From a virus: a DNA stretch of 39,086 bases. Position numbers and translations under genes: made by a program. The stretch lies in IMG/VR virus record IMGVR_UViG_3300033147_000266, positions 1 to 39,086 of that record, one strand, 5' to 3'. Shown here one piece after another: positions 1-18,247 of this stretch (its first letter is position 1; each line of letters begins with the position of its first letter). Below the pieces are notes generated by a model. It was not told the origin of the DNA. It saw only the letters and a list, made by a program, of their open reading frames with translations, and did no database searches.

Positions 1-354
1 TGTTGCGGGTTGGCATAGAAACATCGCCCCTTGCTCCGGTGAGTAAAAGGTTGCGAGACGACATCGCTGCTGGTGGCGTCAAAGGTGATATCGCGATGGC
101 TAAAATAGTCAGTGGCATGTCAATGGGCATTATATATTGGCAGCTTTATGAGGCTGGAGTTATGACGGGCACAGGCCCCGATGATTACACCGCCCAATCT
201 ATGCTCAAAGCCGATGGATGGCAACCGATGGCCATTAACGTCGACGGCAAAATGTACGGGATGGAAAGAATGGACCCGTTCAGCAAATCAGCCAAGTTCA
301 CCGAAGCCTTAGGTTCGTTCCTAGGCGAAATGGACAAGGCCAAGTATGCGTCCA
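1..354. repeat. Left copy of the terminal overlap of a circular genome
   Basis: This stretch matches 38733-39086 end to end without gaps. I count 19 substitutions, all in the first 241 bases, and the last 113 bases are identical. Most changes are silent, and the six amino-acid changes are conservative (Val/Leu, Ala/Val, Ser/Ala, Ile/Val, Val/Ile twice). That is the pattern of two natural strain variants, not sequencing noise. The contig therefore closes into a circle or is circularly permuted, assembled from a mixed population. A biological terminal repeat would be expected to be identical, so I prefer the assembly explanation. Confidence 0.9.
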
Positions 355-1281
355 GGCGAAATGGACAAGGCCAAGTATGCGTCCACCGACATCGAGAAAC
401 AGAGTGCGTTTGCGCGCGGCATGTTGTACATGGTCGATGCTATGATGGAAGATCAGTGGCTGGAGCAAGCGTCTGGGTTCATTAAGGCTATAGAAGGGTC
501 TGAGTCTTTCGACAAGTATATCGCCCGCACAAGCGCAGGATTTATCCCCTACCACGCCGCATTTTCATCTATGAAGAAATTTGAGCGAGAGGGTCGCCCC
601 CAGCTGTCGCAGGACTCGATTTACTCCAGCGTGTCAAATATGGTAGAAGATCAGGTCCGAGGCAACATGCCCAATTTTGGCATGGAACCTCATTTCGTCC
701 GCGTCAAGCGGAATTGGGATGGCTCGGTTCACATGCCCGAACAAACACAGTTTGCAGCGGGCGCTTCACCGTGGGGGCCGACCAAACTTGAGGGTGACTC
801 GCTTACCAAGCTCCTGTTTGAGAATGGAGTATTCCCGACCGAACCATCGTCAATCATGACTATTGGCCCCAAATCGTTCTCCCTGTTGCAGCTTGACGAA
901 AGTGGGAGATTGTATGATAGTTACCTACAAGAAGTCGGCAAGGGTCGGCGTGAGGTACTACAAAGAGCGATGGACGAGGGTAAGATTGATCTTGCGAGGG
1001 ATAAAGCCGGTGAGGGCCCAAATAGCGGAGTAGCTCGGGTCCTCAACACCACCATGTCGCTGGGCAAACAGCTCGGCTTCAAAAATTGGCTCGAAGGCTT
1101 ATCCGACGTAATAGAGGATAACCCAGAAATTGCGAACGCCTTAAATGAGCGATTCGACACTGACGTTAAGGCCATGATTGAAGAAGCCATGTACGATCCA
1201 GAAAATGCAGAACTTGAGGGTCCGGCAGCTTACCAGCCGACCAGATCCCCACTTGAATTCCCAATACCGGAGATGAAATAA
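1..1281 (+). CDS. C-terminal part of giant internal virion protein (LPD38-like), frame broken at the contig joint
   Basis: This is the downstream part of the gene that begins at 37139. The frame is open from base 3 (RVGIETSPLAP...) to about 354. It is then thrown out by the 31-bp duplication, and the correct frame resumes at 386 (TDIEKQSAFARG...) and runs to TAA at 1279-1281. Joining 37139-39086 to 386-1281 gives exactly 948 codons including the stop, or 947 aa. The region contains the conserved 'NTPSNLLRVGIE' and 'GFIPYHAAF' type segments that I associate with the large polyvalent protein associated domain LPD38 of phage ejection proteins (family memory, not a search). The stop overlaps the tail fibre ATG by one base. 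The frameshift is most likely an assembly artefact. Confidence 0.8.
324..385. repeat. 31-bp perfect tandem duplication at the assembly joint
   Basis: Bases 324-354 and 355-385 are identical 31-mers. The same 31-mer ends the window at 39056-39086. One extra copy shifts the reading frame by one base (31 is not a multiple of three) and breaks an otherwise intact gene. This is typical of imperfect trimming of a circular contig overlap. Confidence 0.9.
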
Positions 1282-3194
1282 TGACAATCCAAACTTCAGA
1301 CAACAAGACAATCTACGTCGCTGACGGCATAGAAACGGTCTTTAGCTTTGGTTTTAAGACGACCAGCGAAGACACCATATTCATATTCATTGACGGGGAA
1401 GAATACTTAGGTGAATATTTCACCGCCCTGAATATCAACCAGGATTCCGCGCCTGGAGGCAACGTCGCGATCACGATTCCTCCGCCCGCTGGTGAGAGCG
1501 TAACTATCGTACGTATCGTCCCCCTGTTACAGGAAACAGACTATCTGGAATATGACAAATTTCCCGCCCGATCGCATGAGAAAGCACTCGATGACTTAAC
1601 CCTGCAGAGCCAGCAACAGCAGGAGGAAATCAACCGCTCGCTGAAATCTGGCATTGACACCCCTGTTGGTGTTGTGTACTCTTTGCCCTCACCGGAGCCA
1701 GGCAAAGGCCTGCTTTGGAATCCTGCTGGTGACGGGATAGACAACTCTGAAGATGACCTTAACGGCATCACCACTGCTGCACAAAACAGTGCCAACGACT
1801 CAGAAGCCAGCGCAAACGCATCGGCTATCAGCGCAGCAGAATCAGCAGCGAGCGCAGCTGAGGCGGAGGCCGTGTTTGATTCCAAGCTTGCTGGATTCGG
1901 AACGGACGGTCTTCACCCGCAGATCGATGGGGATCTGAACACCATTGCCCGCAACAGTGAGTACTTCATTACTGCTGCCGATACCACAAATAACCCTGTT
2001 GACTTCACAAGTAACGGCGTTATTCGCACATCAATGACGACAGCGGTTGATGGCGCCATTCAGGTCTTGTATGGACACGGTACTGCTGATAAAGGCAGGC
2101 TCTGGCAACGTACTTTGATCGCCGGTGTCTGGGATGAATGGGTAAGATTGGGTGGTGCAGGTGCTGGCTCTGGCGTACTTGGCCAGGTAATCTACCTTCC
2201 AGGATTAGAGTCTATCCCATCCGGTGAAGGCATAGAGGAAGCAGCAGGTCAGCTCGTTTCACGTTCTGATTACCCGCAGCTGTGGAACGCGGTGTCTGGC
2301 TTCGCACTTGCTGATGCTGACTGGATCACAAAATCCAATGCCGGAGCAAACGGCGTAAGTGAATACTCATCAGGTGACTTGTCTACCACATTTCGTCTTC
2401 CTGATCTGCGCGGCGAGTTTATCCGAGGGATGAACACTACCGGATCAGATCCATTGCGCGATCCAGATCGGGTCGACAACTCGAAAGAATGGCAAGCTGG
2501 TGGAGTGGAAAGTCATAATCATGCGTTGACAGATCCAGGTCACACGCACACCATTGATGGATTTGAAGACAATGGTAACTCGGGGCCAAATGTTAACATA
2601 TCTTCATCATCAAATCAATCTGCAGACGGAACCACAAACAGTCGGGGGACTGGCATCAGCATTGCTGCAGTGGGCGGCTCAGAAACGCGACCGCGCAACA
2701 TACCAGCTATCGTTGCCATCGTATGCCTGACCGCATCGGAGCTTGTCAATCTTTCATCTACCCCGACCGGCTCAGTCATGCAATCGTTTGGCCCACAGAC
2801 TTCTGGATGGCTGGCTTGTAACGGAGCAGCAATTCCCTCACAGCACGTCAACTTGATTGCTATCATCGGAGCCAATACCCCAGACCTTCGCGGTCAATTT
2901 CTGCGTGGTTGGTCAGACGATGCACTTGTCGATCCAGATGGCCCACGTACTGCAAACACTGCGCAAGACCAAGCAGTCGGTGTCCACGGGCACACTGCTA
3001 CGCAACCTCCACATCATCACGAATTCAATATGTCAAATACAGAGGGTGATCAAAATTATCCAGGCCGCGGAAGCGATTCGCCTGCAGGCAACGCATTAAC
3101 AAAGGACACCACTCCAGCAGTCACTGTTGCCGATAGCACTGGCCCTGAAACCCGTCCGAAGAATATCGCAGTCTTCCACTACATTAAGACATGA
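1281..3194 (+). CDS. Tail fibre with T7-type N-terminus and two tail-collar domains
   Basis: 637 aa. Residues 1-125 resemble the N-terminal tail-attachment domain of T7-type fibres: a beta-rich start, a 'VTIVRIVPLLQETDY' segment and a Gln-rich helix (109-118). An Ala/Ser-rich coiled-coil-like linker follows at 163-198. The C-terminal half holds two copies of the phage tail-collar pattern. The first begins near residue 300 and has DLRGEFIRGMN plus the His-rich HNHALTDPGHTH. The second begins near residue 490 (GSVMQSFGPQTSGWLACNGA), has DLRGQFLRGW, and ends in ETRPKNIAVFHYIKT. His clusters of this kind bind metal in trimeric short tail fibres. The gene should encode the host receptor-binding protein. 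Its ATG overlaps the previous stop by one base and its stop overlaps the next ATG by four (ATGA). Confidence 0.88.
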   Translation: MTIQTSDNKTIYVADGIETVFSFGFKTTSEDTIFIFIDGEEYLGEYFTALNINQDSAPGGNVAITIPPPAGESVTIVRIVPLLQETDYLEYDKFPARSHEKALDDLTLQSQQQQEEINRSLKSGIDTPVGVVYSLPSPEPGKGLLWNPAGDGIDNSEDDLNGITTAAQNSANDSEASANASAISAAESAASAAEAEAVFDSKLAGFGTDGLHPQIDGDLNTIARNSEYFITAADTTNNPVDFTSNGVIRTSMTTAVDGAIQVLYGHGTADKGRLWQRTLIAGVWDEWVRLGGAGAGSGVLGQVIYLPGLESIPSGEGIEEAAGQLVSRSDYPQLWNAVSGFALADADWITKSNAGANGVSEYSSGDLSTTFRLPDLRGEFIRGMNTTGSDPLRDPDRVDNSKEWQAGGVESHNHALTDPGHTHTIDGFEDNGNSGPNVNISSSSNQSADGTTNSRGTGISIAAVGGSETRPRNIPAIVAIVCLTASELVNLSSTPTGSVMQSFGPQTSGWLACNGAAIPSQHVNLIAIIGANTPDLRGQFLRGWSDDALVDPDGPRTANTAQDQAVGVHGHTATQPPHHHEFNMSNTEGDQNYPGRGSDSPAGNALTKDTTPAVTVADSTGPETRPKNIAVFHYIKT

Positions 3195-3337
3195 AGAAAC
3201 TTGTCGCTCGCATCGTATTGTTTGTGTCTCTGGCGTTCGTCGCCGGATGCACATTCATATTATGGAGCGACAACGTCTCTGTATCCACCCACACTGAGTC
3301 TGATGACTTGATTAACCGCACGAGGACTATTAAATGA
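3191..3337 (+). CDS. 48-aa secreted protein with lipobox-like signal
   Basis: Small ORF, MKKLVARIVLFVSLAFVAGC..., ending ...LINRTRTIK. It has a Lys-rich N-terminus, a hydrophobic stretch and an AGC lipobox-like end at Cys20. That suggests a lipoprotein, although the residues after Cys20 (TFILW) are still hydrophobic, so a simple membrane anchor is possible. It is coupled to both neighbours by ATGA overlaps (3191-3194 and 3334-3337), which strongly supports it as a real gene. Position after the tail fibre and the signal peptide make it a candidate for the lysis cassette, for example an outer-membrane spanin subunit. No sequence motif proves this. Confidence 0.7.
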   Translation: MKKLVARIVLFVSLAFVAGCTFILWSDNVSVSTHTESDDLINRTRTIK

Positions 3338-3519
3338 AATACCTACTCACCATGTTACTTATCCTGCCATTTACCTTGATGGCTCACGACGACCCCGAAG
3401 CCAATCATAGCGGCGGGCCTTGCTGGATCACTGAGCTGCCGATCACGCCAGTCTATTGCATCTTCACAAAGGGTACGCGGCTGGAGCATCCAAATCCTTT
3501 GCCGGAGAAAACCGAATGA
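3334..3519 (+). CDS. 61-aa secreted small protein
   Basis: It begins MKYLLTMLLILPFTLMAHDD, a clean Sec signal peptide with a probable cleavage after Ala17. The mature part is about 44 residues with two cysteines (GGPCWITELPITPVYCIF) that could form a disulphide in the periplasm. Both ends overlap neighbours by ATGA. I do not recognise the family. The context (two consecutive exported small proteins after the fibre) suggests lysis or envelope interaction. Confidence 0.65.
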   Translation: MKYLLTMLLILPFTLMAHDDPEANHSGGPCWITELPITPVYCIFTKGTRLEHPNPLPEKTE

Positions 3520-3767
3520 CAACATTGAATGGTGAAATCCTTCGAGCCACAGGCGGGCCAACTATTAATGAAGGTCTGTCCACATGGTTCGGGCGTACTG
3601 TTGCCGAATCGCTACAGGACGCGGAACGTCGATGGCTGATCGCACAAGGTGCCCCCGCTACCCAACGTAACGATATGTGGTTCTTTGTCCTGCGAGGGCT
3701 GCTGTACACCGGCGCGTTGAACGATATGCTGTTGGCGTACTGGACTTCGCAACCTACTCCGCTTTAG
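3516..3767 (+). CDS. Conserved small phage protein of unknown function
   Basis: 83 aa starting MTTLNGEILRATGGPTINEG. The start is set by the ATGA overlap with the preceding gene at 3516-3519. The pattern 'GPTINEGL...SLQDAERRWL..QGA...DMW...L...GYTG.LNDMLL.YW' is one I have seen in small proteins near tail genes of many phages, here with a GLLYTGALNDMLLAYW end. The function is unknown to me. The 3' end overlaps the convergent gene on the other strand by 14 bases, with no terminator visible between the two transcription blocks. Confidence 0.75.
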   Translation: MTTLNGEILRATGGPTINEGLSTWFGRTVAESLQDAERRWLIAQGAPATQRNDMWFFVLRGLLYTGALNDMLLAYWTSQPTPL

Positions 3768-4041
3768 GCAAGTTCTCCATCACCCTGGTCGCGTATCCTG
3801 CGATATCGCACCAGTGATCGTCAAAGTCGTTGTCGCCCACCAAAATCCGGCCAATCTTGACCGCAAATAGTCGAAGTGCATGCCTCTGATAGGGAGGCAA
3901 TGCGCATAGCCCGTGTTTAGTCATCGCTCTTTCGATATCGGTTATTGCGTCGCTCATTGGGACAAAGTCTCCATGTTTCGATCCCCGATCTTGCAACAGC
4001 TGCGCGAACGCATCTTTCGTGTCTTCTATATCTTGTGTCAT
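3754..4041 (-). CDS. DUF6378-like protein, last gene of the Z operon
   Basis: 95 aa, MTQDIEDTKDAFAQLLQDRG.... The pattern 'RGSKHGDF', then 'LPPYQRHALRLFAVKIGRIL', then 'GDNDFDDHWCDIAGYATRV' fits a small all-helical phage family I know as DUF6378. The acidic DHWCDIAGY segment recalls metal-binding helices of all-alpha NTP pyrophosphohydrolases (MazG/dUTPase-like). I offer a nucleotide-related role only as inference. It is the distal gene of the string purZ-mazZ-datZ-nuclease, overlapping the nuclease stop by four bases, so it is co-transcribed with dZTP synthesis. Confidence 0.7.
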   Translation of the reverse strand: MTQDIEDTKDAFAQLLQDRGSKHGDFVPMSDAITDIERAMTKHGLCALPPYQRHALRLFAVKIGRILVGDNDFDDHWCDIAGYATRVMENLPKAE

Positions 4042-4388
4042 TTCTTACTCCAGTTTATAGTTAAAAAGCCGTACAGTTCGTCAAAATTGATGTGTCCTTC
4101 CCACATGGCAAGCGAACACAACTGCCAAACATCCAGATCCTTCTCCGTATAGAGTTTGTGGGTCCCTATAGTTGCCCCCTTATGCAGCATCCAATACTTG
4201 CCTGACGTAGGGCGGATCTTAGGGGCGACAGTGCGCCCAAATTTCAACTCAATATGGGACTCCACCCCATTCAGGCAGTAATCTACGTCTGGAATACCGG
4301 CACTGGTTTCGTGCGACTCTACCCGCGAGAAATGGCCGCGATGGCCAAGTCCCGCGTCTAAGGCCCTCCAGAGGGCTGCCTCACTCAT
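4038..4388 (-). CDS. PD-(D/E)XK-type nuclease (VRR-NUC/resolvase-like)
   Basis: 116 aa. The core is ESHETSAGIPDVDYCLNG followed by ESHIELKFG. It gives the catalytic layout Glu24, Asp34 (in GIPD), Glu47 and Lys49 (ELK), which is the PD-(D/E)XK nuclease signature as in VRR-NUC and phage Holliday-junction-type enzymes. A role in cutting branched DNA during replication or packaging, or in degrading host DNA, follows from the family but is not proven. It overlaps datZ upstream by 8 bases and the DUF6378-like gene downstream by 4 bases. The tight coupling to the aminoadenine genes raises the possibility that it discriminates host A-containing DNA from phage Z-containing DNA. Confidence 0.8.
   Translation of the reverse strand: MSEAALWRALDAGLGHRGHFSRVESHETSAGIPDVDYCLNGVESHIELKFGRTVAPKIRPTSGKYWMLHKGATIGTHKLYTEKDLDVWQLCSLAMWEGHINFDELYGFLTINWSKK
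4363..4376. repeat. Dispersed palindrome, copy in the nuclease gene
   Basis: GCCCTC-CA-GAGGGC with perfect 6-bp arms, inside the 5' end of the nuclease gene and 5 bases from the datZ stop. Confidence 0.7.
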
Positions 4389-4878
4389 TTTCAGCCTCGT
4401 ATTTTCCTTCCAGAAGATCGCGCACCACGCTGTTACAAGCTTCGACGAGCGCAGGATCGGCTGAGCCTATTAAATCACAGCGGTTCTTGTAGCGGATCAT
4501 AAGCTTATTGCCCACGTGATGGGCATGCCGCCCAACTTGATTGTCCGTGATGAACGCTATAGCCTCGATGATGTCCGCCATCGCGACAACACTGGCTTCC
4601 CTACTGTTACAGGCAGAGAAGGACTTGCCATCATAGGCCGTGTTGATCTTGAGCCGCTCCTTGGCGGGAGTGGGAATGTCGCCAGTCAAGATCTCATCCA
4701 GATCGTGATCCAGAGCGTACTTGATGATTTTAGTGTCATCAATGCCCAAATTAGCGGCGATCGCTCGGGCGATCATCGTCACATTGTACATGTGCTCAGC
4801 CAGGCTTTGATCCCTGATTGTGCGGACGATTGTCCATCGCTTCACGTCTTGCGCCAACATTAAATCTTGAATCTTCAT
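4381..4878 (-). CDS. datZ: DatZ, HD-domain dATP triphosphohydrolase
   Basis: 165 aa HD phosphohydrolase close to the YfbR/DatZ type. Metal ligands are visible: His29 in QSLAEH, His58-Asp59 in ALDHDLDEILTGDIPTP (with Glu62 and Asp67), and Asp102 in VVAMADIIEAI. In aminoadenine phages DatZ removes dATP as deoxyadenosine plus triphosphate, so that the polymerase meets dZTP rather than dATP. That assignment rests on the family plus the adjacent mazZ and purZ. Without the context it could be called a generic 5'-deoxynucleotidase. The start overlaps the mazZ stop by four bases. Confidence 0.9.
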   Translation of the reverse strand: MKIQDLMLAQDVKRWTIVRTIRDQSLAEHMYNVTMIARAIAANLGIDDTKIIKYALDHDLDEILTGDIPTPAKERLKINTAYDGKSFSACNSREASVVAMADIIEAIAFITDNQVGRHAHHVGNKLMIRYKNRCDLIGSADPALVEACNSVVRDLLEGKYEAENE

Positions 4879-5132
4879 TTTCTCATCCTGTATAAGGTTA
4901 TTTGCTGATGGACGACGCCCACCAGAAAGTTGAACACGTCACCGGCTTCCTCGATGATGTGCATTATGTCTGCATCGCTCATCGCGTCCCCCAATTCCGT
5001 TACTTCGGCTCGCAACATACCAAACAGATCAGCCGGATCAACATCTTCTATCCGCCCCTTATGGGAGTTAATCTGCATCTTGGCCTCAGCCATTGACATG
5101 ATTACCTTCTTTACTTCATCATATTCATCCAT
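4875..5132 (-). CDS. mazZ: MazZ, MazG-like (d)GTP pyrophosphohydrolase
   Basis: 85 aa, a single all-alpha MazG-type domain. The family metal motif ExxE...ExxD is present as Glu43/Glu46 (RAEVTELGD) and Glu62/Asp65 (EEAGDVFNFL). In Z-genome phages MazZ converts dGTP (and GTP) to the monophosphate, giving the dGMP used by PurZ. The start codon shares one base with the purZ stop (TAATG), implying translational coupling. The short length fits a stand-alone phage MazG domain, which would be expected to oligomerise. Confidence 0.88.
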   Translation of the reverse strand: MDEYDEVKKVIMSMAEAKMQINSHKGRIEDVDPADLFGMLRAEVTELGDAMSDADIMHIIEEAGDVFNFLVGVVHQQITLYRMRK

Positions 5133-6199
5133 TACCCATTCCCCCTTCCCAGTTCAACCCGTGTCATGTCGCAAGGATCCATCGCCCGCGCCCTTACGTC
5201 ATTGACAGTTGGGCCCCATCCCTCGTACATAACCTGGGAATGGAATCCTGCATTTGATCCCGCAGTGATAATGTTCCCTACCCTGTGGCTCACTTCCTCG
5301 GGCGCGTAGTTGCAGAAGTTAAGGAAGATGTGATCAGGTTGGCATTGGGCGATCGCCTCTTCAATCTGCATCTGCGACCACGTAAACACCCGACGTATCT
5401 TGTTCGTCACGGTGGTCCGTTCTTCTGGCTGGCCTAATTGCTCCCACGTCAGCTCCTCTTGATCAGGATAGCAAGGCCCACTATTCCCGCCCACACGAAT
5501 TGGGTGCATACGTGCAGTGCCGATCACCCTCCGGAGGGCCCGCAATGGGATGGCGCAATCTGCCATAAATCTGGCGGGGGTGCAATCTCGGCTCGTGCAG
5601 TAGGGCCAAAATCCAGCGTTCAGGCCGAGGCTATAACCTTGTGCTCCCTCCAGCAAGATTTCCTTCGCAGCAGTTACCTTCTTCACGTACTCCCTGTGGC
5701 TGATTATCCTTGATCCCCAGAATGGGCGATTCTTGAGTAGTGATCCGGCTGACGGGTCGCGATCCCCATTGCGTATGATCTTTTGGATCATTGCTGCTGC
5801 CGACCCCTGTTGCGTGGACCCGATGTTGGTAAGCCGATCGTCGGTCTGTTCTGCGCCCTTGTGTTCAGGCAACAGGATAGTCGCGTTCTCGTGAATCCAC
5901 AGGTCGAAGTGGCCGTACCCGTACGATTGCAGGTCGTCCAGTTCCATTTCCAGCTGTGTTAGGCTAAACACCGATCCTGGTCCGATCATCACGTCCCTTA
6001 CCGATTCACCAACTAGGCCATTCGGTAGCACCTTGTGGATCATCTTCCGACCCAACCCATCAATAAAAGTGTGGCCCGCGTTCGGCATGTTGGCATTCAC
6101 CACCATGTCGTAGTTACCGTGGAAACCCAGATATCCGGCTATCAAGCCTTTGCCTGTTGATCCGTACTGTAGGTCGATTATCACGTCTACTTTCTTCAT
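5132..6199 (-). CDS. purZ: PurZ, succino-aminodeoxyadenylate synthetase
   Basis: 355 aa PurA relative, shorter than bacterial PurA (about 430). The P-loop region reads QYGSTGKG. Ser14 sits where PurA has its catalytic aspartate (GDEGKG, Asp13 in E. coli), which is the hallmark of PurZ. Other conserved blocks are NAGH (40-43), IGSTQQG (127-133), EGAQG (184-188), TSRDCTPAR (202-210) and RVGGNSG (235-241). The guanine-binding KxD of PurA is absent and NFCNY (294-298) lies in its place, consistent with use of ATP/dATP instead of GTP. Expected reaction: dGMP + Asp + ATP to N6-succino-2-aminodeoxyadenylate, which host PurB turns into dZMP. The start overlaps the upstream zinc-motif gene by ATGA. 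Confidence 0.95.
   Translation of the reverse strand: MKKVDVIIDLQYGSTGKGLIAGYLGFHGNYDMVVNANMPNAGHTFIDGLGRKMIHKVLPNGLVGESVRDVMIGPGSVFSLTQLEMELDDLQSYGYGHFDLWIHENATILLPEHKGAEQTDDRLTNIGSTQQGSAAAMIQKIIRNGDRDPSAGSLLKNRPFWGSRIISHREYVKKVTAAKEILLEGAQGYSLGLNAGFWPYCTSRDCTPARFMADCAIPLRALRRVIGTARMHPIRVGGNSGPCYPDQEELTWEQLGQPEERTTVTNKIRRVFTWSQMQIEEAIAQCQPDHIFLNFCNYAPEEVSHRVGNIITAGSNAGFHSQVMYEGWGPTVNDVRARAMDPCDMTRVELGRGNG
5527..5538. repeat. Dispersed palindrome, copy in purZ
   Basis: The perfect 12-bp palindrome CCCTCCGGAGGG inside purZ. It is a member of the GCCCTC-NN-GAGGGC family scattered over both gene blocks. Confidence 0.7.
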
Positions 6200-6414
6200 T
6201 TCATACTCCTATTTATTTCTCTATTCAAAAATTCGCGCACTCTGCGCTCTCTGGTCGCGACAAGGCGTACCCTGCGCGCTGTGCTTTCACATTCCCAACA
6301 CTTATAGCTACGGAAGTCGTCCTTAGTCTTGATCTCCTTGCAGATAGGGCACTTACGTGGGTTGACTATCTGGGCTCCGCGCCACGTGTGTGTTACTCTA
6401 TTTACCGGTTGCAT
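6196..6414 (-). CDS. Small Cys4 zinc-motif protein upstream of purZ
   Basis: 72 aa. Cysteine pairs CPIC and CWEC (KCPICKEIKTKDDFRSYKCWECES) form a likely zinc knuckle, followed by an Arg-rich tail (RRVRLVATRERRVREF) suited to nucleic acid binding. It resembles its upstream neighbour (C-x2-C...K..eF...C-x2-C...R), so the two look like paralogues. A similar C-x2-C/C-x2-C layout occurs in HNH/endonuclease VII-like N-termini, but no catalytic His-Asn-His is present. It overlaps the upstream gene by 17 bases and the purZ start by four, so it belongs to the Z operon. Confidence 0.7.
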   Translation of the reverse strand: MQPVNRVTHTWRGAQIVNPRKCPICKEIKTKDDFRSYKCWECESTARRVRLVATRERRVREFLNREINRSMK

Positions 6415-6565
6415 GATACCTGCCCTTCCTTATTCGTTTCTCACATATGATGCAAGTATTGATGTATCCTCGATTAACGTGCTTCCGAAACTCTTCAATC
6501 TTCTTTCGCACGACACATACCACGCATTTCTTGTGGGTGTCCACTACTAAGTTATCGATGCCCAT
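6398..6565 (-). CDS. Small Cys4 zinc-motif protein, first gene of the Z operon
   Basis: 55 aa from ATG at 6565 (MGIDNLVVDTHKKCVVC...), preceded by a GGAGGAGC ribosome-binding site. The longer frame upstream crosses a repeat region and is unlikely to be translated. The cysteine pairs CVVC and CIIC plus a basic end (EKRIRKGRYH) suggest zinc and nucleic-acid binding. It is related in layout to the next gene. Being first in the purZ-mazZ-datZ string it may regulate it, but this is inference. Confidence 0.65.
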   Translation of the reverse strand: MGIDNLVVDTHKKCVVCVVRKKIEEFRKHVNRGYINTCIICEKRIRKGRYHATGK

Positions 6566-6582
6566 ATTACAAGCTCCTCCGT

Positions 6583-6660
6583 GTCCACGCGGACACACGC
6601 GGACGCCACGCCGCATCAGCCCGACTCGCCCGCCCGAGTCCACGCGGACACACGCGGACG
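6583..6660. repeat. Two 23-bp direct repeats with internal hairpins before the Z operon
   Basis: Identical 23-mers lie at 6583-6605 and 6638-6660, starting 55 bp apart. Each begins with GTCCACGCGGAC (a 4-bp stem with loop ACGC) and carries the 10-mer CACGCGGACA/G twice in tandem. The region is noncoding, between the primase-helicase stop (6716) and the Z operon start (6565). The arrangement is iteron- or operator-like. I see no good -35/-10 pair in the same gap. Confidence 0.7.
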
Positions 6661-6715
6661 GTATCCGTACCTATGTCATTCGCCATCGTCATATGTCCCG
6701 ATAGGCCATGGATAT

Positions 6716-9058
6716 TTAGACTTCTTCACTTTCTTCTTCGCTGTCTTCCGACAGCAAGCCAGGATACTGCATCTGAATCTTCGCAATACAGCTAAGAAGC
6801 GGGTCCACTTTGTACGCATTTACTCTACCTCCGTCCTTGCGGATCTTCGTTGGTCTAAGCCCCATCTCATTGATCATTCGGTTCGCCCATGGGCTGAATA
6901 GAGCAGCGAATCGGTTGCGATCGAGACAATACCTCTCATAATGGGCATAAAGGTCGGCTTTATTCACCACCTGTGGCCATTTGCCTTCATGACTTTGCGA
7001 TTGGGTGTGACCTTGGGTGTCCATGAGCGGGAAATCGCCGGATTCCAGGATTCTGGTCCACCATCGCAAGTGGTCGTCCACCGACGTGTTTAATATCCGT
7101 TGCTTCTTCAAGCCTTCTGTCACAGGGGCAGACCGGATCAAACTCTTGGCTTCCGCATCGAGTTCCACATTCTGCAAGTAGTAGAGTAAGGCTTCCATTC
7201 CCCCGTTGTCCAATTCATCGGCTATCGCACCAAAGTACTGGAAATTGCCGGTCTTCGTGCTCGGCACGTCTAATACGAACCACCGACGGGAGTCGAAAGC
7301 TGCCGGTATCACCCATTCACTGTTGCTTGCCACTAACAGGTGACAGCAGTTGCGGTACTGGATCGCGTCCACGCCCTTGCGTTCGCCAATCAGGTACTTC
7401 TCCGTCACCATGCCCTTCAGCTTACCCGCCGTCTTTTTGTTACCGCCCCAAGTAATTTCGTCAGCAAAGATAGTAATAGCATCAAATAGATGACTGTTAA
7501 AATTGGACGTAAGATGTGTGTCATCAATGAGATGTCGATGATGTGGCCCGAGTAACGACCCAATTGCGTTCGCGAATGTGCCCTTCCCGCAGCCTTCTCC
7601 ACCGCGCATAACGATGGCGCAACCTTTTGGATTAGCCGGATCTTGTACGAGATCAGCCAGCCACGTAATGAGCCACGTAAATTGTTCAAGGTTCCCATCG
7701 CAGATTATCTCCTTCAAGTGAGTGAGGAACAGGGTGCATTCGCCTTTCTTCGGCTCAACGCTGAATCCGTTCCAGGTGTTATAGTAGCCCTCCGGAGCGC
7801 TCTGCAATGGGAATAGACCAAGCCCATTCTCATACGTGCGCCTTGCCTCGTGCCCGAGCCAGATCTTCGTTACCGGTACCGGCTTGGCGTCGTCGCCGTC
7901 GCCTGCCCAGATTATGTCGTTGGCCAGCAATTGCTCGAATGTCTGCTTCTTGAGTAAGTCGTATGGGGATTCCCATTCATTGACTACCTTACCCTTCTCG
8001 CGCAGGATTCGCAACTCACCGCCAACTGCCAACATCGCGTATTCCTCGTTCATGCGTGTGACCAGTTCATCGAACGGATTGCCGCCTCGCTCACCTTTCT
8101 CAGGGTCGGGCTTCCATCCCGCTTGCTTGGCGTAGTAGAATAAAGTACCGCCCCGCACCGTGCCGAAATCGCTGAATCCGTTCCATCTGATGTCGCATTC
8201 ACCGGCTTTATACCGCTTGCCGCGCTGCGACCATTCATCCCAAATCGCCAGGCCGGTTTCGTTATTCAGCTGCGACTTGACGCTCAGCCCCATCTTCAAC
8301 CAGTCATCGTATTCAAGTTCATTGGGATCGATGGCGGCCAACATAGTGACAATCTGTTCCTCGCTGATCGGCTGCTCAAGGTCGGCGTCAGTTACGTGTT
8401 CATTTCCCAACCCCATCGCGTTCTGTTGCTTAGGCTTCCACAATACGCCCATCTTCTCCATTATCCAACGTGGAATCTCGGGTGCCTCGCCCGCCGCTTG
8501 CCATGTGTACATCTTACCGTTGATCGTTGAGGGGAAGGCGACCACGTGACCGCGACAGTTGAGTGCCTCGCCGCCCCGCGTATCAATACCCTTGCCGATT
8601 TTGCCGGATGACTGGCTTGCGTTCTCTTGCCACTCGAAGAAATAGTGGCGCCCATCATTAGGGGTTACTGCGATCGGACAGGGTGGTATGTTGCCATGTT
8701 CATTTTCAAGTCGCTTAAGTACCGCCATTCCGTCGACGTCGCCATGTCGGTCAACGTCCATCACAAACGCGCCACCTTCCCTGCCACAGGCGATACCAAT
8801 GTTGTACCCCTTGAACGTCCCTGTGTCGGGGTGAAACCACTTCTCCATGATCTTGCGCCGACGGGACGAACTGCCGTAGTTGACATTAGTGTCCGCCCTC
8901 GGTAACTTCTTGCTATTGGGCGTGATTGGTACTACAAACCACCCCATCTTAATGTACTCAAGTGAGGCGAGGTAAACCCGCCAGTCGTGGCTCGGTTGAG
9001 CCTCTATTTCTACCATGCGAGCGAGGTTTAGCCCTCGACTCATTGCTGGATCGTTCAT
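6716..9058 (-). CDS. Prim-pol / superfamily 3-type helicase (bifunctional primase-helicase)
   Basis: 780 aa. The N-terminal prim-pol domain has Asp101 and Asp103 (FVMDVDRHGD), His138 (GRHYFFEW) and Asp159 (GIDTRGG). A PriCT-2-like segment lies near 233-315 (EEQIVTMLAAI...GGTLFYYAKQAGW). The C-terminal DUF5906/D5-like ATPase has Walker A GGEGCGKGT (486-494), Walker B IFADE (530-534), sensor Asn579 and Arg591-592 (FDSRRWFVLD). It should make primers and unwind DNA at the phage fork. It lies between dpoZ (25-bp gap) and the Z operon. Two start options exist, Met1 and Met6, and I kept the longer. As the primase in a Z phage it may also have to accept dZTP. Confidence 0.9.
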   Translation of the reverse strand: MNDPAMSRGLNLARMVEIEAQPSHDWRVYLASLEYIKMGWFVVPITPNSKKLPRADTNVNYGSSSRRRKIMEKWFHPDTGTFKGYNIGIACGREGGAFVMDVDRHGDVDGMAVLKRLENEHGNIPPCPIAVTPNDGRHYFFEWQENASQSSGKIGKGIDTRGGEALNCRGHVVAFPSTINGKMYTWQAAGEAPEIPRWIMEKMGVLWKPKQQNAMGLGNEHVTDADLEQPISEEQIVTMLAAIDPNELEYDDWLKMGLSVKSQLNNETGLAIWDEWSQRGKRYKAGECDIRWNGFSDFGTVRGGTLFYYAKQAGWKPDPEKGERGGNPFDELVTRMNEEYAMLAVGGELRILREKGKVVNEWESPYDLLKKQTFEQLLANDIIWAGDGDDAKPVPVTKIWLGHEARRTYENGLGLFPLQSAPEGYYNTWNGFSVEPKKGECTLFLTHLKEIICDGNLEQFTWLITWLADLVQDPANPKGCAIVMRGGEGCGKGTFANAIGSLLGPHHRHLIDDTHLTSNFNSHLFDAITIFADEITWGGNKKTAGKLKGMVTEKYLIGERKGVDAIQYRNCCHLLVASNSEWVIPAAFDSRRWFVLDVPSTKTGNFQYFGAIADELDNGGMEALLYYLQNVELDAEAKSLIRSAPVTEGLKKQRILNTSVDDHLRWWTRILESGDFPLMDTQGHTQSQSHEGKWPQVVNKADLYAHYERYCLDRNRFAALFSPWANRMINEMGLRPTKIRKDGGRVNAYKVDPLLSCIAKIQMQYPGLLSEDSEEESEEV
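7787..7800. repeat. Dispersed palindrome, imperfect copy in the primase-helicase gene
   Basis: GCCCTC-CG-GAGCGC, one mismatch from the consensus GCCCTC-NN-GAGGGC. Confidence 0.5.
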
Positions 9059-9083
9059 TGTTCATTGCTCCTGCTATTGCACT

Positions 9084-10925
9084 TCACTTATTCATTAAAG
9101 CGTCGTGCCAGTTTATGCCCTTCCCCGAGAAATCGAGTATGAGCGGGACTTTACTTCTCTTCTTGCCCTCTATGTGGTTCTTCACCTCCTTATAGTCGTC
9201 TTCCCACGTATCCTCGTTGAGCGACAGCCCGTACGAGTCGTGGGTATTCAATAGTAGTCGGCCATCTGTGCCGTCTAAAGCTAGGGCGATTAGGCCCCAA
9301 TTCTCTTTATTCCAGTCCGCAGCCGTTGCCTGAATCAATAGGCCACTGGCTTTATACGCCTTGAATCCGCGAGGGAATCGCAGCCTCCGCCCGTTGTACG
9401 TCTCGACATAACCCTGTGACAGGGCCAATTCGGTGCATTTCTGCGCCAACTCCTTAACGCCAGGCAATCTGCGATGGTAGGCATCAATCACGTTCATCGC
9501 CTCAATTCCCGCCTTCTTATAGTGAATGCGGTCCTCCTCAGTCTTGCCACGCGGGACAAAGGAATCGTGGGTGTAGGGCATGCCCATGGCTTCCGCTATC
9601 GCCCCGTTGCCCGAGTTGAAGATCATTGATAAATTGAGTTGCTTGGCGTTCGGTTGACCGCTGTATTCAGCGTTCCGAACTAGATTGGTCATATCCGCCA
9701 CCATCCGGTGAAAGTCGGTGAGCGGGTTCTTGCGGTAGATTTCAATTATCTCTGGGTTACCGACCAAATCAGCGAAGGTGCGTACCTCAAACGAGTTCTG
9801 ATCGCAATCGACCCAAACCTGGCCCTCGTCGGGGAGGAAACAGGGCTTGACGATCGCGGCCACGTGCTTCCGCCTCGACGGTATCTGTTGTAGTGCGGGT
9901 CCGGTGTACGACAAGCGTCCGGTCCCCGTTCCTCCGTCCTCGCCCTTGCTCTGATTTATGGTCGGATAAACCCTGCCCCCATGCGCGTGTTCAAGGACAT
10001 GTTGGCCCAGGAAAGTGTCGCGTGTTTTAAGGTCGGATCGGATTTGGAGGATTAGGCCTGCCCGTTCGTCATAATCAATCGACCGCAGGAATTCGGCGTT
10101 ACAGGATGCGTTACCGCCTGGAGTTGAGGGCATCGGGATTCCGTTGTCCGTTTGCCACGACCCGTCCGGCATCTGCTGTGGGTCAAACATCATCTTCACC
10201 TGTGGCGAGGAATTGACATTGATCGACTGCTCAGCTAAATAATCAAGTCTGCGCTGCGCTTTGTTGATCTGCGGCGTCATCATCACCATTGCTTGTTCTG
10301 CGTACTCAAGATCGACCCGAATCCCGTGCATTTCAGTCTCTATAAACTGGGGCATCCTGCTCCGCTCGAATTCAATAATTCGCTCTAGCCCCTGTCGCTG
10401 AATCAGCTTATCTTGCAGGTCGTGGATTTCAAAGGTCCGGCGCGTGTCGGTCTTGGCGTAGGGCGCGACAACATGGGAGGGCGCGTGTTGCAGGTTGGGC
10501 ATCTGCATGTTGCGTGTGGCCCTGCCGCCGAACAGGTCCTTTAGGTCCTGGTAAATGTCCTTATACTTACCTACCTTGAGGTAGTGCTTACTCAGGTCGT
10601 CAAGTGAGTAACTGCGGTGATGCTCGTCTATTTGAACCGCACGGATGACGGTGTCATCAAGCTGTTCAAGAGGGAGGTAAATTCCAGTAGCAGCAGACAT
10701 GCGGTAATCGAAACTAGCGTTATGACAAACAACCAGCCCACGATAGGTCTGCATCTCATCATTGATCCAGTCAACTGATTTGGGGTATTCCCGAATATCA
10801 ACATAAAAATCATCCTCTGGGGTTGAAATGGAGAAGCCAAAAACCCGAGCCACAGGGTAGACAAGCCCTGTGGTCTCGGTGTCAAAGGCAATCTTGCTAA
10901 ATTGCTGCAGTGACGGAAACTCCAT
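9084..10925 (-). CDS. dpoZ: Family A DNA polymerase with 3'-5' exonuclease, probable DpoZ
   Basis: 613 aa. Exonuclease residues: Asp15/Glu17 (FDTETTGL), Asn69/Asp73 (CHNASFDYR) and Tyr156/Asp160 (YAKTDTRR). Polymerase motif A is DCDQNSFEVR, with Asp375 as the likely metal ligand and Glu380. Motif B is KQLNLSMIFNSG (Lys428, and Phe436 where E. coli Pol I has Tyr766). Motif C is NTHDSYGLSL with Asp563 and Ser564 where Pol I has Glu. With purZ, mazZ and datZ in the same genome this is the expected aminoadenine-tolerant polymerase called DpoZ. The symbol rests on context, since I cannot place it in the DpoZ clade by eye. The start is 3 bases inside... the SSB-like gene ends at 10925, sharing one base with this ATG. 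Confidence 0.88.
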   Translation of the reverse strand: MEFPSLQQFSKIAFDTETTGLVYPVARVFGFSISTPEDDFYVDIREYPKSVDWINDEMQTYRGLVVCHNASFDYRMSAATGIYLPLEQLDDTVIRAVQIDEHHRSYSLDDLSKHYLKVGKYKDIYQDLKDLFGGRATRNMQMPNLQHAPSHVVAPYAKTDTRRTFEIHDLQDKLIQRQGLERIIEFERSRMPQFIETEMHGIRVDLEYAEQAMVMMTPQINKAQRRLDYLAEQSINVNSSPQVKMMFDPQQMPDGSWQTDNGIPMPSTPGGNASCNAEFLRSIDYDERAGLILQIRSDLKTRDTFLGQHVLEHAHGGRVYPTINQSKGEDGGTGTGRLSYTGPALQQIPSRRKHVAAIVKPCFLPDEGQVWVDCDQNSFEVRTFADLVGNPEIIEIYRKNPLTDFHRMVADMTNLVRNAEYSGQPNAKQLNLSMIFNSGNGAIAEAMGMPYTHDSFVPRGKTEEDRIHYKKAGIEAMNVIDAYHRRLPGVKELAQKCTELALSQGYVETYNGRRLRFPRGFKAYKASGLLIQATAADWNKENWGLIALALDGTDGRLLLNTHDSYGLSLNEDTWEDDYKEVKNHIEGKKRSKVPLILDFSGKGINWHDALMNK

Positions 10926-11233
10926 TAGAATGGAATGTCATCAAAGCCGTCATCTGCGGGTGGTGGCTTGGTCGTGCCGTCGGGGTTTTGTCCCCGATTG
11001 CCTGGCTGCGACCCTCCGGAGGGCTGATCCTTGGGATTGAACTTCAACTTCATGTACTTCATCCCCTTGCCCGACATGTTGATCCATGCCGAGATCCAAT
11101 GGTCACTGCACGTGTTACAGCGGGGGCAGACTACTTCTGCGTTGCCACTGTAATCGCGATCCGTTTCCTTCGACTTTTTGTCCCGTGCGTTGAACAGGAC
11201 GCCTTCATTCGAGTTGTCGTATCCGCCGCTCAT
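10925..11233 (-). CDS. SSB-like protein with acidic IPF tip
   Basis: 102 aa. An OB-fold-like core (GVLFNARDKKSKETDRDYSG, then DHWISAWINMSGKGMKYMKLKF) is followed by a Gly/Pro/Asn-rich flexible linker and the C-terminus DDGFDDIPF. That tip is the classic SSB tail used to recruit replication partners. The core fits the small DUF736-like phage/plasmid family. A C-x2-C-x2-C insertion (CPRCNTC, 36-42) is unusual and could bind zinc. It is placed directly before the DNA polymerase, sharing one base with it. Confidence 0.8.
   Translation of the reverse strand: MSGGYDNSNEGVLFNARDKKSKETDRDYSGNAEVVCPRCNTCSDHWISAWINMSGKGMKYMKLKFNPKDQPSGGSQPGNRGQNPDGTTKPPPADDGFDDIPF
11012..11023. repeat. Dispersed palindrome, copy in the SSB-like gene
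   Basis: CCCTCCGGAGGG, a perfect 12-bp palindrome, inside the flexible-linker coding part of the SSB-like gene. Confidence 0.7.
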
Positions 11234-11538
11234 TGGTCGTCCTCCATTTCGGCCAACTCCGTCAGGCAGCGAATTGTGCCCTCAGCGTAGCTTGCGAGTT
11301 GCGCCTCCAACTTGGCGGTTCGCTCTTTTCTGGTTTTGGCGCCCTGCGCCCTGCGATGGCAGGCAAGTTCGTTAAGTTCCTTGACGTCCAGCAAACTGAC
11401 GATCGTCTTGAGCGGCTCGATCTGGCGGAGGGTGATGTTGCACCACCTCTCCCTGTCCCATTTCATTGCCTGATCGTACAAGATCCCGATTGCCTCGGTG
11501 ACTTGGGCTTGAATTGCTTTGTTCTCTGTTGTGCTCAT
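11230..11538 (-). CDS. Unknown early protein, helical
   Basis: 102 aa, MSTTENKAIQAQVTEAIG..., predicted mostly helical with a basic middle (CHRRAQGAKTRKERTAKLEAQ). I do not recognise it. It overlaps the SSB-like gene by four bases and starts 20 bases downstream of a strong terminator hairpin, without a clear Shine-Dalgarno sequence. It is thus the first gene of the SSB-polymerase-primase-Z string. Confidence 0.65.
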   Translation of the reverse strand: MSTTENKAIQAQVTEAIGILYDQAMKWDRERWCNITLRQIEPLKTIVSLLDVKELNELACHRRAQGAKTRKERTAKLEAQLASYAEGTIRCLTELAEMEDDQ

Positions 11539-11557
11539 GTTTGTATACTCTAAAGTT

Positions 11558-11586
11558 AGAAAAACAGGGGACCCTAAGGGTCCCCC
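11558..11586 (-). terminator. Rho-independent terminator or attenuator ahead of the replication/Z genes
   Basis: On the minus strand an 8-bp perfect stem GGGGACCC / GGGTCCCC with loop TTA is followed by TGTTTTTC. It sits between the stop at 11595 and the next start at 11538. No consensus promoter follows it, so downstream expression probably depends on read-through. Confidence 0.85.
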
Positions 11587-11594
11587 GCTCCATG

Positions 11595-12314
11595 TTACTC
11601 TGTGTCGCGATTGACGTCTTTGACGCCACCGCTAACAGCTTCGTACATTACCAGCGCAAGGTTGTAAACCGGCTCACTGACAAATCCGATGGGAGCAACA
11701 CCGAAGTTGTAGTAATCCTGGCCCTCCTTGTTCTGGTCCTCAACTGCCGACACCTTGTAGGCCCGACTGAAGCGGTCGCCACCTGCCATCTTAACCAGGG
11801 TGTTAAGTTGACGGTTGACTTTCATCTTCGACTTTGACATCGAGATGACGATTTCCTCAGGGCGACGGTCGTCGTGCAAGACCAGTCCGAAGTGTTGAGC
11901 CATGTCGACGATTTCATACTCGTCATCATAACCCGCATCCATGAAGGCTTGCTGCGCCTCCGCCTCTGAGGGGTGAGCGCCGAAAAATCCGCCGCCCGCT
12001 GATTGCAACTTCCAGATGCACCATTCCTTGCGGAAGTACACCGGTACGAAGTTGATCGACTTGCCATACAGCTCGGTCGACACGTTATTGAACAACATGC
12101 CAGAATCGGCACCCTCAATGTACTCGGGCTTGTTGGCCTTCCGTTGAGGCGACAGGTCCTGTACCAATCCGAGACGCGGGATGGTGAGATCATCAACTGT
12201 GACGTTCTCCTGTCCCTTTGTGCTGTCATCGGGCAGGTAATCTGGCCGGTTGTCCGTGAACCCGTATTGGGTCGCTACTGCGGTCGATTCCGCTGCTTTC
12301 TTCTTTGCTACCAT
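11595..12314 (-). CDS. Conserved replication-region protein of unknown function
   Basis: 239 aa beginning MVAKKKAAESTAVATQYGF. It contains 'LTIPRLGLVQDLSPQRKANKPEYIEGADSG'-type text (cited in parts), 'NFVPVYFRKEWCIWK' and a Gly-rich GGGFFG. I associate this layout with a conserved protein found next to DNA polymerase/SSB genes in many phages. A DNA-binding or recombination role is only inference. It follows the 148-aa gene in the operon driven by the promoter at 12853-12881 and ends just before a terminator. Confidence 0.7.
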   Translation of the reverse strand: MVAKKKAAESTAVATQYGFTDNRPDYLPDDSTKGQENVTVDDLTIPRLGLVQDLSPQRKANKPEYIEGADSGMLFNNVSTELYGKSINFVPVYFRKEWCIWKLQSAGGGFFGAHPSEAEAQQAFMDAGYDDEYEIVDMAQHFGLVLHDDRRPEEIVISMSKSKMKVNRQLNTLVKMAGGDRFSRAYKVSAVEDQNKEGQDYYNFGVAPIGFVSEPVYNLALVMYEAVSGGVKDVNRDTE

Positions 12315-12362
12315 TTCTACTTCCTCATTTCTACATTCTGCACACTGATTAAGGCCAGTGTA

Positions 12363-12809
12363 CTAAGCCTTTACTACTGATGCCACTTCATACGTGGAGA
12401 TTTGTACCATGCTGTCGTCGGGTATTGGCTCACCCTCGCCAATCTGCGCCTTAATGAAGGCCCCGAGCGTGGACGCATTGACGGTCTCTGCCACAATGTC
12501 GCCATGCCCGTTGTCCTTGAGCCACTCCTGTAGCGCGAACTTGTCGATCTGCTTGGCCGACAGCTGATTGCTGATTTGGATCCGGCCTACGCCCTTGATG
12601 TTGACGGTCGAGATCCCCATTTCATCCATGCGGGTCGGGAGGATCTGCTTGCGCAGCAACTCAAATTCTGCGTAGATCAGGGCCGATGCCGCCTTGGCGT
12701 CGTTGTATCGGGCCTGCAGGATCTTGAACTGCTCAGCCAAACCTTTAATGTCGGCGTTTGCGAAGTCCTCGATCAGCATGTTGTATCGTGGTAAGGGTAT
12801 TTCTGCCAT
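12363..12809 (-). CDS. Conserved replication-region protein, unknown function
   Basis: 148 aa, MAEIPLPRYNMLIEDFANAD.... Its N-terminal half is helical (coiled coil near 20-55). Its C-terminal half has 'VNIKGVGRIQISNQL' and 'WLKDNGHGDIVAETVNASTL', a pattern I have seen in conserved early phage proteins of unknown role. It is the first gene after the promoter at 12853-12881, with AGGAGC as ribosome-binding site. Confidence 0.75.
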   Translation of the reverse strand: MAEIPLPRYNMLIEDFANADIKGLAEQFKILQARYNDAKAASALIYAEFELLRKQILPTRMDEMGISTVNIKGVGRIQISNQLSAKQIDKFALQEWLKDNGHGDIVAETVNASTLGAFIKAQIGEGEPIPDDSMVQISTYEVASVVKA

Positions 12810-12828
12810 GTTATGCTCCTAGTTGCGA

Positions 12829-12842
12829 GGGACGGGTGTCCC
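12829..12842 (-). promoter_or_regulatory. 5'-proximal leader hairpin
   Basis: GGGAC-loop ACCC-GTCCC, a perfect 5-bp stem located about 4-17 bases after the predicted transcription start of the promoter at 12853-12881, and upstream of the ribosome-binding site. Confidence 0.6.
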
Positions 12843-12852
12843 ACGAACCCCT

Positions 12853-12881
12853 ATTATACCACACTCGGGGGTCCGTGTCAA
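12853..12881 (-). promoter_or_regulatory. Sigma70-type promoter
   Basis: On the minus strand TTGACA, a 17-base spacer ending TGTGG, then TATAAT. Both hexamers are consensus and the spacer end gives an extended -10 (TGG before TATAAT). It drives the genes at 12809 and below. Confidence 0.92.
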
Positions 12882-12902
12882 GTACCTTTTTAAGAACTGG
12901 GT

Positions 12903-13103
12903 TCACTCTTTCCATTGGTATACGTTTTCATTCGTCTGACAATCGTGAAACATCAGCAATTTTCCGCTCTTTACGCCCTTAAATATGAAAAAACCAGATA
13001 CAGGGATTCCAGCGTCACGGAGTTTGGCCGCACACCACATTTCAATCATCGCAGACGTGAAATCAAGTGGCACGTCATGCGGGTTGATTCTTACTTCGAT
13101 CAT
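12903..13103 (-). CDS. Small protein of unknown function
   Basis: 66 aa, MIEVRINPHDVPLDFTSAMI.... The middle reads AKLRDAGIPVSGFFIFKGVK, a mixed alpha/beta pattern. No family recognised. The start overlaps the upstream stop by four bases, so it is the last gene of the helicase operon, ending just before the next promoter. Confidence 0.65.
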   Translation of the reverse strand: MIEVRINPHDVPLDFTSAMIEMWCAAKLRDAGIPVSGFFIFKGVKSGKLLMFHDCQTNENVYQWKE

Positions 13104-13279
13104 GTGTCAAGCCGCTCTTCCACGATTTGTATCGCATGTTCACGGTCTTTTGCCCAAAACGGACCCGTTACCGCCTCCACGAAATCTGACTCCCTCGCTT
13201 CTTGTAAATCCTTATCGTCGAAGAACCGCTTTGCATGCAGCGGCCCGTGAATGTGCATGTATCCGTACCATTGGTTCAT
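13100..13279 (-). CDS. Small protein of unknown function
   Basis: 59 aa from ATG at 13279 (MNQWYGYMHIHGPLHAKRFF...). This start, not the longer upstream frame, is chosen because it forms an ATGA overlap with the preceding 57-aa gene. The sequence is rich in charged residues. No family recognised. Confidence 0.65.
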   Translation of the reverse strand: MNQWYGYMHIHGPLHAKRFFDDKDLQEARESDFVEAVTGPFWAKDREHAIQIVEERLDT

Positions 13280-13449
13280 GCCTCTATCCCCTCGTTTATT
13301 ACAAACCGCATCCACACGTGATTGGTTTCGCCACAGTGGGGGCATTCAGCCATCGCGGACACCACTCCCTCTATTAATGCGGGTCCGGTTTTGACCTCAT
13401 ATTCCTTATTGCAGTGATCGCACAGTTTATACACTTGAAGTGTGCTCAT
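13276..13449 (-). CDS. 57-aa zinc-ribbon-like protein
   Basis: A short ORF that begins MSTLQVYKLCDHCNKEYE and carries two CxxC pairs (Cys10/Cys13 and Cys36/Cys39, CPHCGE), typical of a zinc ribbon. Both ends overlap neighbours by ATGA (helicase stop at 13446, next start at 13279), which supports translation. The function is unknown. It may accompany the helicase. Confidence 0.7.
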   Translation of the reverse strand: MSTLQVYKLCDHCNKEYEVKTGPALIEGVVSAMAECPHCGETNHVWMRFVINEGIEA

Positions 13450-15149: not shown

Positions 15150-15169
15150 GATTGCTCCTCATTACGCGT

Positions 15170-15207
15170 TAAAGTAGATAGGCGGGGAGTCCATAAACTT
15201 CCCCGCC
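15170..15207 (-). terminator. Candidate terminator/attenuator hairpin before the helicase
   Basis: Minus-strand stem GGCGGGGA / TCCCCGCC (15200-15207 and 15181-15188), extendable past one bulge, followed by TATCTACTTT. The U-tract is weak, so it may be a partial terminator or an mRNA-stabilising hairpin. The 143-base gap 15150-15292 holds nothing else I can identify. Confidence 0.45.
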
Positions 15208-15292
15208 ACCGGTTTCTACCGATTGGGCTTCGCAGGTTTTTCTAAGCGCCCCTGCAGCAATCACCTTACGCTATAGCGCTATCGCGATGCGG

Positions 15293-15829
15293 TTACGCGG
15301 CGGCCTTTTCAGCCTTGGCTGCGGCTTTAGCGGCTGCGGCTTCTTCCTTCGCCTTATCAGCGGCTGCCTTTTCCTTCGCCTTCACTGCATCTGCTTCGCG
15401 CTTGTCGCGCGCTTTGATCAGCGGAGCCAGGATTTTGGCCAGCTTGTCGGCACCAGAAACGCGATCCTTCGGCGCTTTCTCGTCCTTCACGTCTTGCGCT
15501 GCCGCCTTTACGTTCTCGGCATCGATCTTGGTAACACGAGCGCGGATCCGGTTGCCCAGGTTCATGCGTTGCATGCCAACGTTGAGGTTGCCGTATGCAG
15601 CCTGCAATTGGTCGTTGTCCTCGATCGTCTTCTTGCTCACCTTGAGCGGAAAGGCCAGGAACTTGCCTGCGATGACGTACAACTCGTTAACGTTCAAACC
15701 TGCCAGGCCCTGTGCAACGTCATCGTTGTTGTGCAGAGACTTGCCGCCAGACGAGGTGCGGGTGGAGACGTAATTCTCGCGCTTGATTTTGATGAGCGCT
15801 TCGCTTTCGGTCGTATTTTCTTCGGTCAT
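15293..15829 (-). CDS. Early protein A, paralogue of the 20077-20553 product
   Basis: 178 aa from ATG at 15829 with GAGG upstream. The longer frame crosses the promoter and is rejected. The middle carries 'KSLHNNDDVAQGLAG' and 'GNLNVGMQRMNLGNRIRARV', which line up with 'PSLHNGDEVAVFLAG' and 'GLNPGQQRMNSGNRIRMAA' in the protein encoded at 20077-20553. A long Ala/Lys/Glu-rich tail (about 125-178) is predicted to be one charged helix. The family is known to me only as a conserved phage protein of unknown function. It has its own promoter at 15891-15919. Confidence 0.75.
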   Translation of the reverse strand: MTEENTTESEALIKIKRENYVSTRTSSGGKSLHNNDDVAQGLAGLNVNELYVIAGKFLAFPLKVSKKTIEDNDQLQAAYGNLNVGMQRMNLGNRIRARVTKIDAENVKAAAQDVKDEKAPKDRVSGADKLAKILAPLIKARDKREADAVKAKEKAAADKAKEEAAAAKAAAKAEKAAA

Positions 15830-15864
15830 TTCATGTCCTCCATGGGACGTTAAGTAAAAAGGTC

Positions 15865-15879
15865 GGGACGGAGTGCCCC
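15865..15879 (-). promoter_or_regulatory. 5'-proximal leader hairpin
   Basis: Minus-strand GGGGC-ACTCC-GTCCC, a 5-bp stem with one G-U pair, just after the predicted start of transcription from the promoter at 15891-15919. Confidence 0.45.
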
Positions 15880-15890
15880 TACGTACAGCC

Positions 15891-15919
15891 ATTATACCAC
15901 ACTCAGCTACTGCTGTCAA
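15891..15919 (-). promoter_or_regulatory. Sigma70-type promoter
   Basis: Minus strand TTGACA, 17-base spacer ending GTGTGG, TATAAT: both hexamers consensus, extended -10. It drives the gene at 15829. Confidence 0.92.
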
Positions 15920-15941
15920 GTATGGTTTGGTAGCCTCGTTC

Positions 15942-16351: not shown

Positions 16352-16370
16352 GTCTTGCTCCTAAAAAAGT

Positions 16371-16384
16371 GGGCGTCCCTGCCC
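16371..16384 (-). promoter_or_regulatory. Intercistronic hairpin, conserved loop copy A
   Basis: Minus strand GGGC-AGGGAC-GCCC between the stop at 16393 and the ribosome-binding site of the gene starting at 16351. It is followed by CACTTTTTTAGGAGC. Confidence 0.65.
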
Positions 16385-16392
16385 GTGATCGG

Positions 16393-17268: not shown

Positions 17269-17286
17269 TTCATACTCCAGTTGCGA

Positions 17287-18239: not shown

Positions 18240-18247
18240 GGTGATTG

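Follow-up and report, generated by a model that had tools for sequence, protein, structure and literature searches.

The DNA analysed here (the window) is a virus record of 39,086 bases, in which a run of genes on the minus strand is arranged, in the order of transcription, as dpoZ, a primase/helicase-like gene, two small cysteine-rich ORFs, purZ, mazZ, datZ, a VRR-NUC-like nuclease gene and a DUF6378-like gene. The core of the cluster consists of purZ (5132-6199), coding for a predicted (2-amino)succinoadenylate synthase of 355 amino acids, mazZ (4875-5132), for a predicted MazG-like pyrophosphohydrolase of 85 amino acids, and datZ (4381-4878), for a predicted HD-domain dATP triphosphohydrolase of 165 amino acids. 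The three ORFs, which a first-pass annotation had described as overlapping, are all present on this strand at the positions claimed, with 1 base shared by purZ and mazZ and 4 bases by mazZ and datZ, and a plausible ribosome-binding site precedes each start. The overlapping run extends past datZ into the VRR-NUC-like gene and then the DUF6378-like gene. The description of the pathway as complete stands for the phage-encoded part; beyond it the word does not apply, as in φVC8 the steps from dSMP to dZTP are carried out by host enzymes (PMC8342488). The ends of the record (1-354 and 38733-39086) repeat each other, the first 300 bases being 94% alike, in the manner of strain variants. A duplication of 32 bases (323-385) splits an ORF that spans the end junction. 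Circular permutation of a genome of about 38.7 kb is probable.

The product of purZ scores 349 bits on NCBIfam NF038379, the curated NCBI model of PurZ (cut-off 300 bits), and at most 124 bits on the PurA models, in each case below the cut-off of the model, which is 368 bits or more; Pfam assigns it to the PurA family PF00709 only. Its matches among solved structures are, best first, the PurZ of φVC8 (6fm1; 53% identity over 338 amino acids), the PurZ of S-2L, a PurA-like enzyme and true PurA. The two substitutions on which the annotation had relied could both be confirmed: Ser14 occupies the place of the catalytic aspartate (Asp13 of E. coli PurA), and the guanine-binding KxD is missing, since residues 294-297 read Asn-Phe-Cys-Asn (N294, F295, C296, N297) where PurA has TKLD. 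This NFCN base loop is of the ATP type, as in φVC8. When the pocket is compared with that of S-2L PurZ, for which the substrate-contacting residues have been named (PMC8342488), all positions compared match except two: R244 aligns to a gap in the window protein as well as in φVC8, and Q308 is replaced by asparagine in both (N297 in the window protein). With respect to the nucleotide, PMC12884076 gives a preference for ATP in PurZ0 and for GTP in PurZ, which seems reversed relative to the solved PurZ-ATP/dATP complexes of PMC8342488. Ser is found at position 14 in all 126 environmental PurZ relatives in which the position can be read, a count that is biased because the pattern used to retrieve many of them includes that Ser. 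The phylogeny that had been suggested as a check was computed as a quick search on 82 proteins, with only four PurA rows; it places the protein in the φVC8-type PurZ clade, in one set with ten of the eleven PurZ references (SH-aLRT 98), apart from PurZ0 (99) and PurA (100). This outcome agrees with the scores on the curated models, and by homology the gene is a PurZ, not a PurA or a PurZ0.

MazZ matches PHROG 9860 (E 2e-22) and is 53% identical to the protein of ZP6 and 45% to that of φVC8; by its relatives it belongs to the short, φVC8-like MazZ-2 type present in these two phages, in contrast to S-2L and BUCT555, which carry the MazZ-1/DUF550 type. The acidic motifs reported for a MazG-type domain are there as E43xxE46 and E62xxD65, and these four metal-binding residues, together with R84, are invariant in 15 relatives. 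The predicted structure (pLDDT 80) is all-helical and MazG-like, with MazG-type chains as top solved matches, and the MazZ profile finds the MazG-related chain 2yxh with E 0.001. Superposition of the model on S-2L MazZ (7ody) gave Z 7.3 with an rmsd of 3.6 over 68 residues, and it should be borne in mind that values of Z below 8 are common for helical models. The residues by which the S-2L enzyme reads guanine, I56 and D60, correspond to N68 and G72 in the window; that MazZ-2 proteins are devoid of them was already noted by the original authors (PMC8342488). Because these residues are not kept, we infer dGTP as the substrate of MazZ-2 from association only.

DatZ is recognised by the profile of dATP triphosphohydrolases (PHROG 7076, E 6e-24), and among solved structures it comes closest to S-2L DatZ (6zpa, E 2e-13). 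The family scores of PurZ, MazZ and DatZ exclude a chance resemblance. The signature sequences of an HD hydrolase, read earlier as QSLAEH and HDLDE, lie at Q24SLAEH29 and H58DLDE62. The two-metal site is retained in full (H29, H58, D59, E62, D67 and D102, for H34, H66, D67, E70, D75 and D119 of S-2L), and so are the residues that select for adenine and deoxyribose (I17 and W15, for I22 and W20). Among the phosphate-binding residues of S-2L, R19 and K81 are kept as R14 and K73; the position of K116 is taken by Ala99 (codon GCG). In the first study of DatZ, Lys116, which contacts the triphosphate in S-2L, was described as strictly conserved (PMC8065100). Among 129 DatZ proteins encoded beside a PurZ, 106 have Lys at this position and 23 do not, the latter number taking in the window protein and one gap. 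With 23 of 129 lacking it, the lysine is not a family-defining residue, and the idea that Ala99 marks a broken DatZ was dropped on account of this variability. On the basis of this survey, Ala99 is regarded as natural variation within the DatZ family, and the activity or specificity of the enzyme may differ owing to the missing Lys.

The family A polymerase that had been noted elsewhere in the genome (dpoZ, 9084-10925, minus strand, 613 amino acids) is itself a DpoZ. It reaches 812 bits on the DpoZ model NF038380, with a curated cut-off of 500 bits, and matches φVC8 DpoZ (7pbk) with E 7e-198. All features described for the φVC8 enzyme (PMC8599892) were found, namely its signature residues (L455, F459, G548 and S583), four in number, and its insertions 1-3. 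DpoZ is thus stronger evidence for Z-DNA than had been realised at first. DpoZ from φVC8 prefers dZTP, and by analogy the window polymerase would do the same. A small protein encoded before dpoZ (10925-11233), for which no family match was found, ends in DDIPF, resembling the C-terminal tip of single-strand DNA-binding proteins.

Between dpoZ and purZ lies the primase/helicase-like gene (6716-9058, minus strand, 780 amino acids), with Pfam and PHROG matches and the domains Prim-Pol, PriCT-2 and DUF5906, at a place equivalent to that in φVC8, ZP6 and BUCT555. It is followed by two small ORFs on the same strand. The first (6398-6643) is cysteine-rich and weakly resembles the zinc motifs of endonuclease VII (PHROG 1035, E 5e-4); the second (6196-6414), also cysteine-rich, with CxxC pairs, overlaps the start of purZ, and a search for its relatives in phages found none. 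Neither has a counterpart between primase and purZ in φVC8, ZP6 or BUCT555. Both were considered as accessories of the Z pathway, and the idea was set aside. On the other side of the triad, the VRR-NUC-like nuclease gene (4038-4388, minus strand; PHROG 2165, E 1e-10), for which the Pfam search gave no match of its own, follows datZ, a place common to φVC8, ZP6 and BUCT555. The DUF6378-like gene (3754-4041, minus strand) closes the leftward run; it scores 21.5 bits on Pfam DUF6378, below the cut-off of 27.1, and its predicted four-helix model gave no significant match in the PDB. Its place is conserved in φVC8, ZP6 and BUCT555, and it occurs in S-2L, too. DUF6378 was considered as a fourth enzyme of the Z cluster and rejected, as the 230 phage records in which it is present include many phages of Salmonella, Escherichia and Klebsiella that do not belong to the group.

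A sigma70-like promoter with an exact TTGACA-N17-TATAAT (12853-12881, minus strand) likely drives the leftward replication operon, a use that we infer. The window holds six exact TTGACA-N17/18-TATAAT sequences, compared with 0.01 expected, the others being at 15891-15919, 17310-17338 and 19282-19310 on the minus strand and at 21499-21528 and 26730-26759 on the plus strand. The same consensus occurs once each in φVC8, BUCT555 and ZP6 (about 30 kb) and is absent from S-2L (45 kb). If the genome contains Z, these promoters would need to function with Z at the positions of A. Palindrome counts, taken as a trace of restriction escape, displayed no clear pattern, with GATC at 0.93 of expectation.

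Among characterised systems, φVC8 (Enhodamvirus; also VP2 and VP5) has the same arrangement on one strand, that is dpoZ, primase, purZ, mazZ of the MazZ-2 type, datZ, VRR nuclease and DUF6378, and shares with the window the convergent tail genes, with DpoZ at 51% identity and PurZ as given above. It differs by an extra small ORF of its own between datZ and the nuclease, by having no counterpart of the two cysteine-rich ORFs, and by a DatZ that is only 39% identical over 130 amino acids. The order of the window is also found in Alteromonas phage ZP6 (Mareflavirus; PurZ 52%, DpoZ 50%), whose DatZ, however, keeps the Lys, and in Stenotrophomonas phage BUCT555 (PurZ 49%, DpoZ 53%), which departs from it in the type of its pyrophosphohydrolase. 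The gene order is kept as well in Vibrio phage K300 and in most IMG/VR relatives; in the record of K300 (L008), mazZ is present but unannotated at 7028-7273, between purZ and datZ. Cyanophage S-2L possesses the datZ-mazZ-purZ triad and furnishes reference structures for all three enzymes, but its PurZ is only 39-40% identical to that of the window, and it uses MazZ-1, and PrimPol instead of DpoZ. The PurZ0 phages (Wayne, Ghobes) have in common with the window the Ser for Asp in a PurA-like enzyme, whereas dutZ/dmtZ replace datZ/mazZ and PurZ0 and DpoZ-1 form separate clades (PMC12884076). A megablast search with bases 1-20000 of the window against a phage collection including φVC8 gave no match, and in comparisons of the replication proteins with those of relatives most identities were 35-60%, so the virus is only distantly related to Enhodamvirus and Mareflavirus. 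The isolated relatives with a window-like layout (φVC8, ZP6 and BUCT555) infect Gammaproteobacteria, and the phage is probably short-tailed.

The survey of PurZ relatives also brought up other arrangements. Ten loci with PurZ and DatZ (L020-L024, L027, L055, L056, L064 and L068) gave no match to either MazZ profile, so that they have either a pyrophosphohydrolase of a third type or no such enzyme. PurZ-like genes with Ser for Asp lie on two contigs from bacterial MAGs (L101, 6001-6996, and L102, 6001-6996), of which one is 994 kb in length, and neither DatZ, MazZ nor DpoZ was found within 6 kb of them.

By analogy to the characterised enzymes, MazZ would convert dGTP to dGMP, which PurZ would condense with aspartate to dSMP, with (d)ATP as the phosphate donor; host enzymes would then take dSMP via dZMP to dZTP. 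DatZ would remove the triphosphate of dATP and thereby empty the competing pool, and DpoZ would replicate the genome with dZTP instead of dATP. The expected outcome is the replacement of A:T by Z:T and resistance to many restriction enzymes with A in their site. The triad of S-2L alone was able to put Z into the DNA of E. coli (PMC8342488). Gene families, active-site residues, gene order, phylogeny and the DpoZ-type polymerase, read against the literature (PMC8342488, PMC8065100, PMC8599892 and PMC12884076), lead us to interpret the locus, with a probability of about 0.93, as a Z-DNA cassette of the φVC8 type carried by an uncultured phage, its function deduced from characterised homologues. 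Known phages with this small gene set exchange every adenine of their DNA for 2-aminoadenine (Z); as judged from the genome alone, the virion DNA of the present phage most probably has Z instead of A as well.

Three other explanations have to be weighed against this assignment. It is scarcely credible that the cluster boosts ordinary adenine synthesis by a true PurA, accompanied by a generic MazG protein and an HD nucleotidase: the recognition by Pfam of the PurA family alone could be quoted in its favour, but the presence of Ser14 where PurA has Asp, the NFCN loop that replaces TKLD, the excess of the PurZ score over PurA scores that stay below their cut-offs, the position in the tree outside PurA and the presence of DpoZ in the same genome all speak against it. 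Equally far-fetched is decay of the cluster or an error of assembly, as might be suspected from the imperfect overlap of the record ends and the 32-base duplication, for both ends are more than 3 kb away from the cluster, and its frames are all intact and overlapping, with conserved catalytic positions.

More attention is merited by the possibility that the pathway is active while DatZ, being weakened or altered, fails to clear dATP, selection then being mainly the task of DpoZ, which would result in partial substitution by Z. The alanine at the position of a lysine reported as strictly conserved (PMC8065100) is what suggests it. On the other hand, the same position varies in the minority of DatZ proteins described above, and L026, of the small clade around the window PurZ, also has Ala there; moreover, the metal ligands, R14, W15, I17 and K73 are kept in DatZ and the signatures of DpoZ are intact. 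Partial substitution is accordingly considered very unlikely for the window. Applied to Lys-less DatZ phages at large, namely the window and a scattered minority, the proposal that removal of dATP is weakened or the substrate shifted, such that the exchange of A for Z is incomplete or polymerase-dependent, is slightly less remote, but still improbable.

The Z-DNA cassette thus remains the preferred reading. That the pathway itself is known, as the first-pass annotation had stated, is borne out by descriptions since 2021 and by at least 387 PurZ relatives in IMG/VR, and the window joins a group of Z-DNA phages that already has many members, which leaves the picture of the pathway unchanged. The φVC8-like Z-DNA phages gain a further genome that is distant but well supported, with PurZ and DpoZ at about 50-57% identity, and a residue of DatZ once thought to be invariant turns out to be variable. 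The enzymes encoded in the window may serve as additional variants for producing Z-containing DNA.
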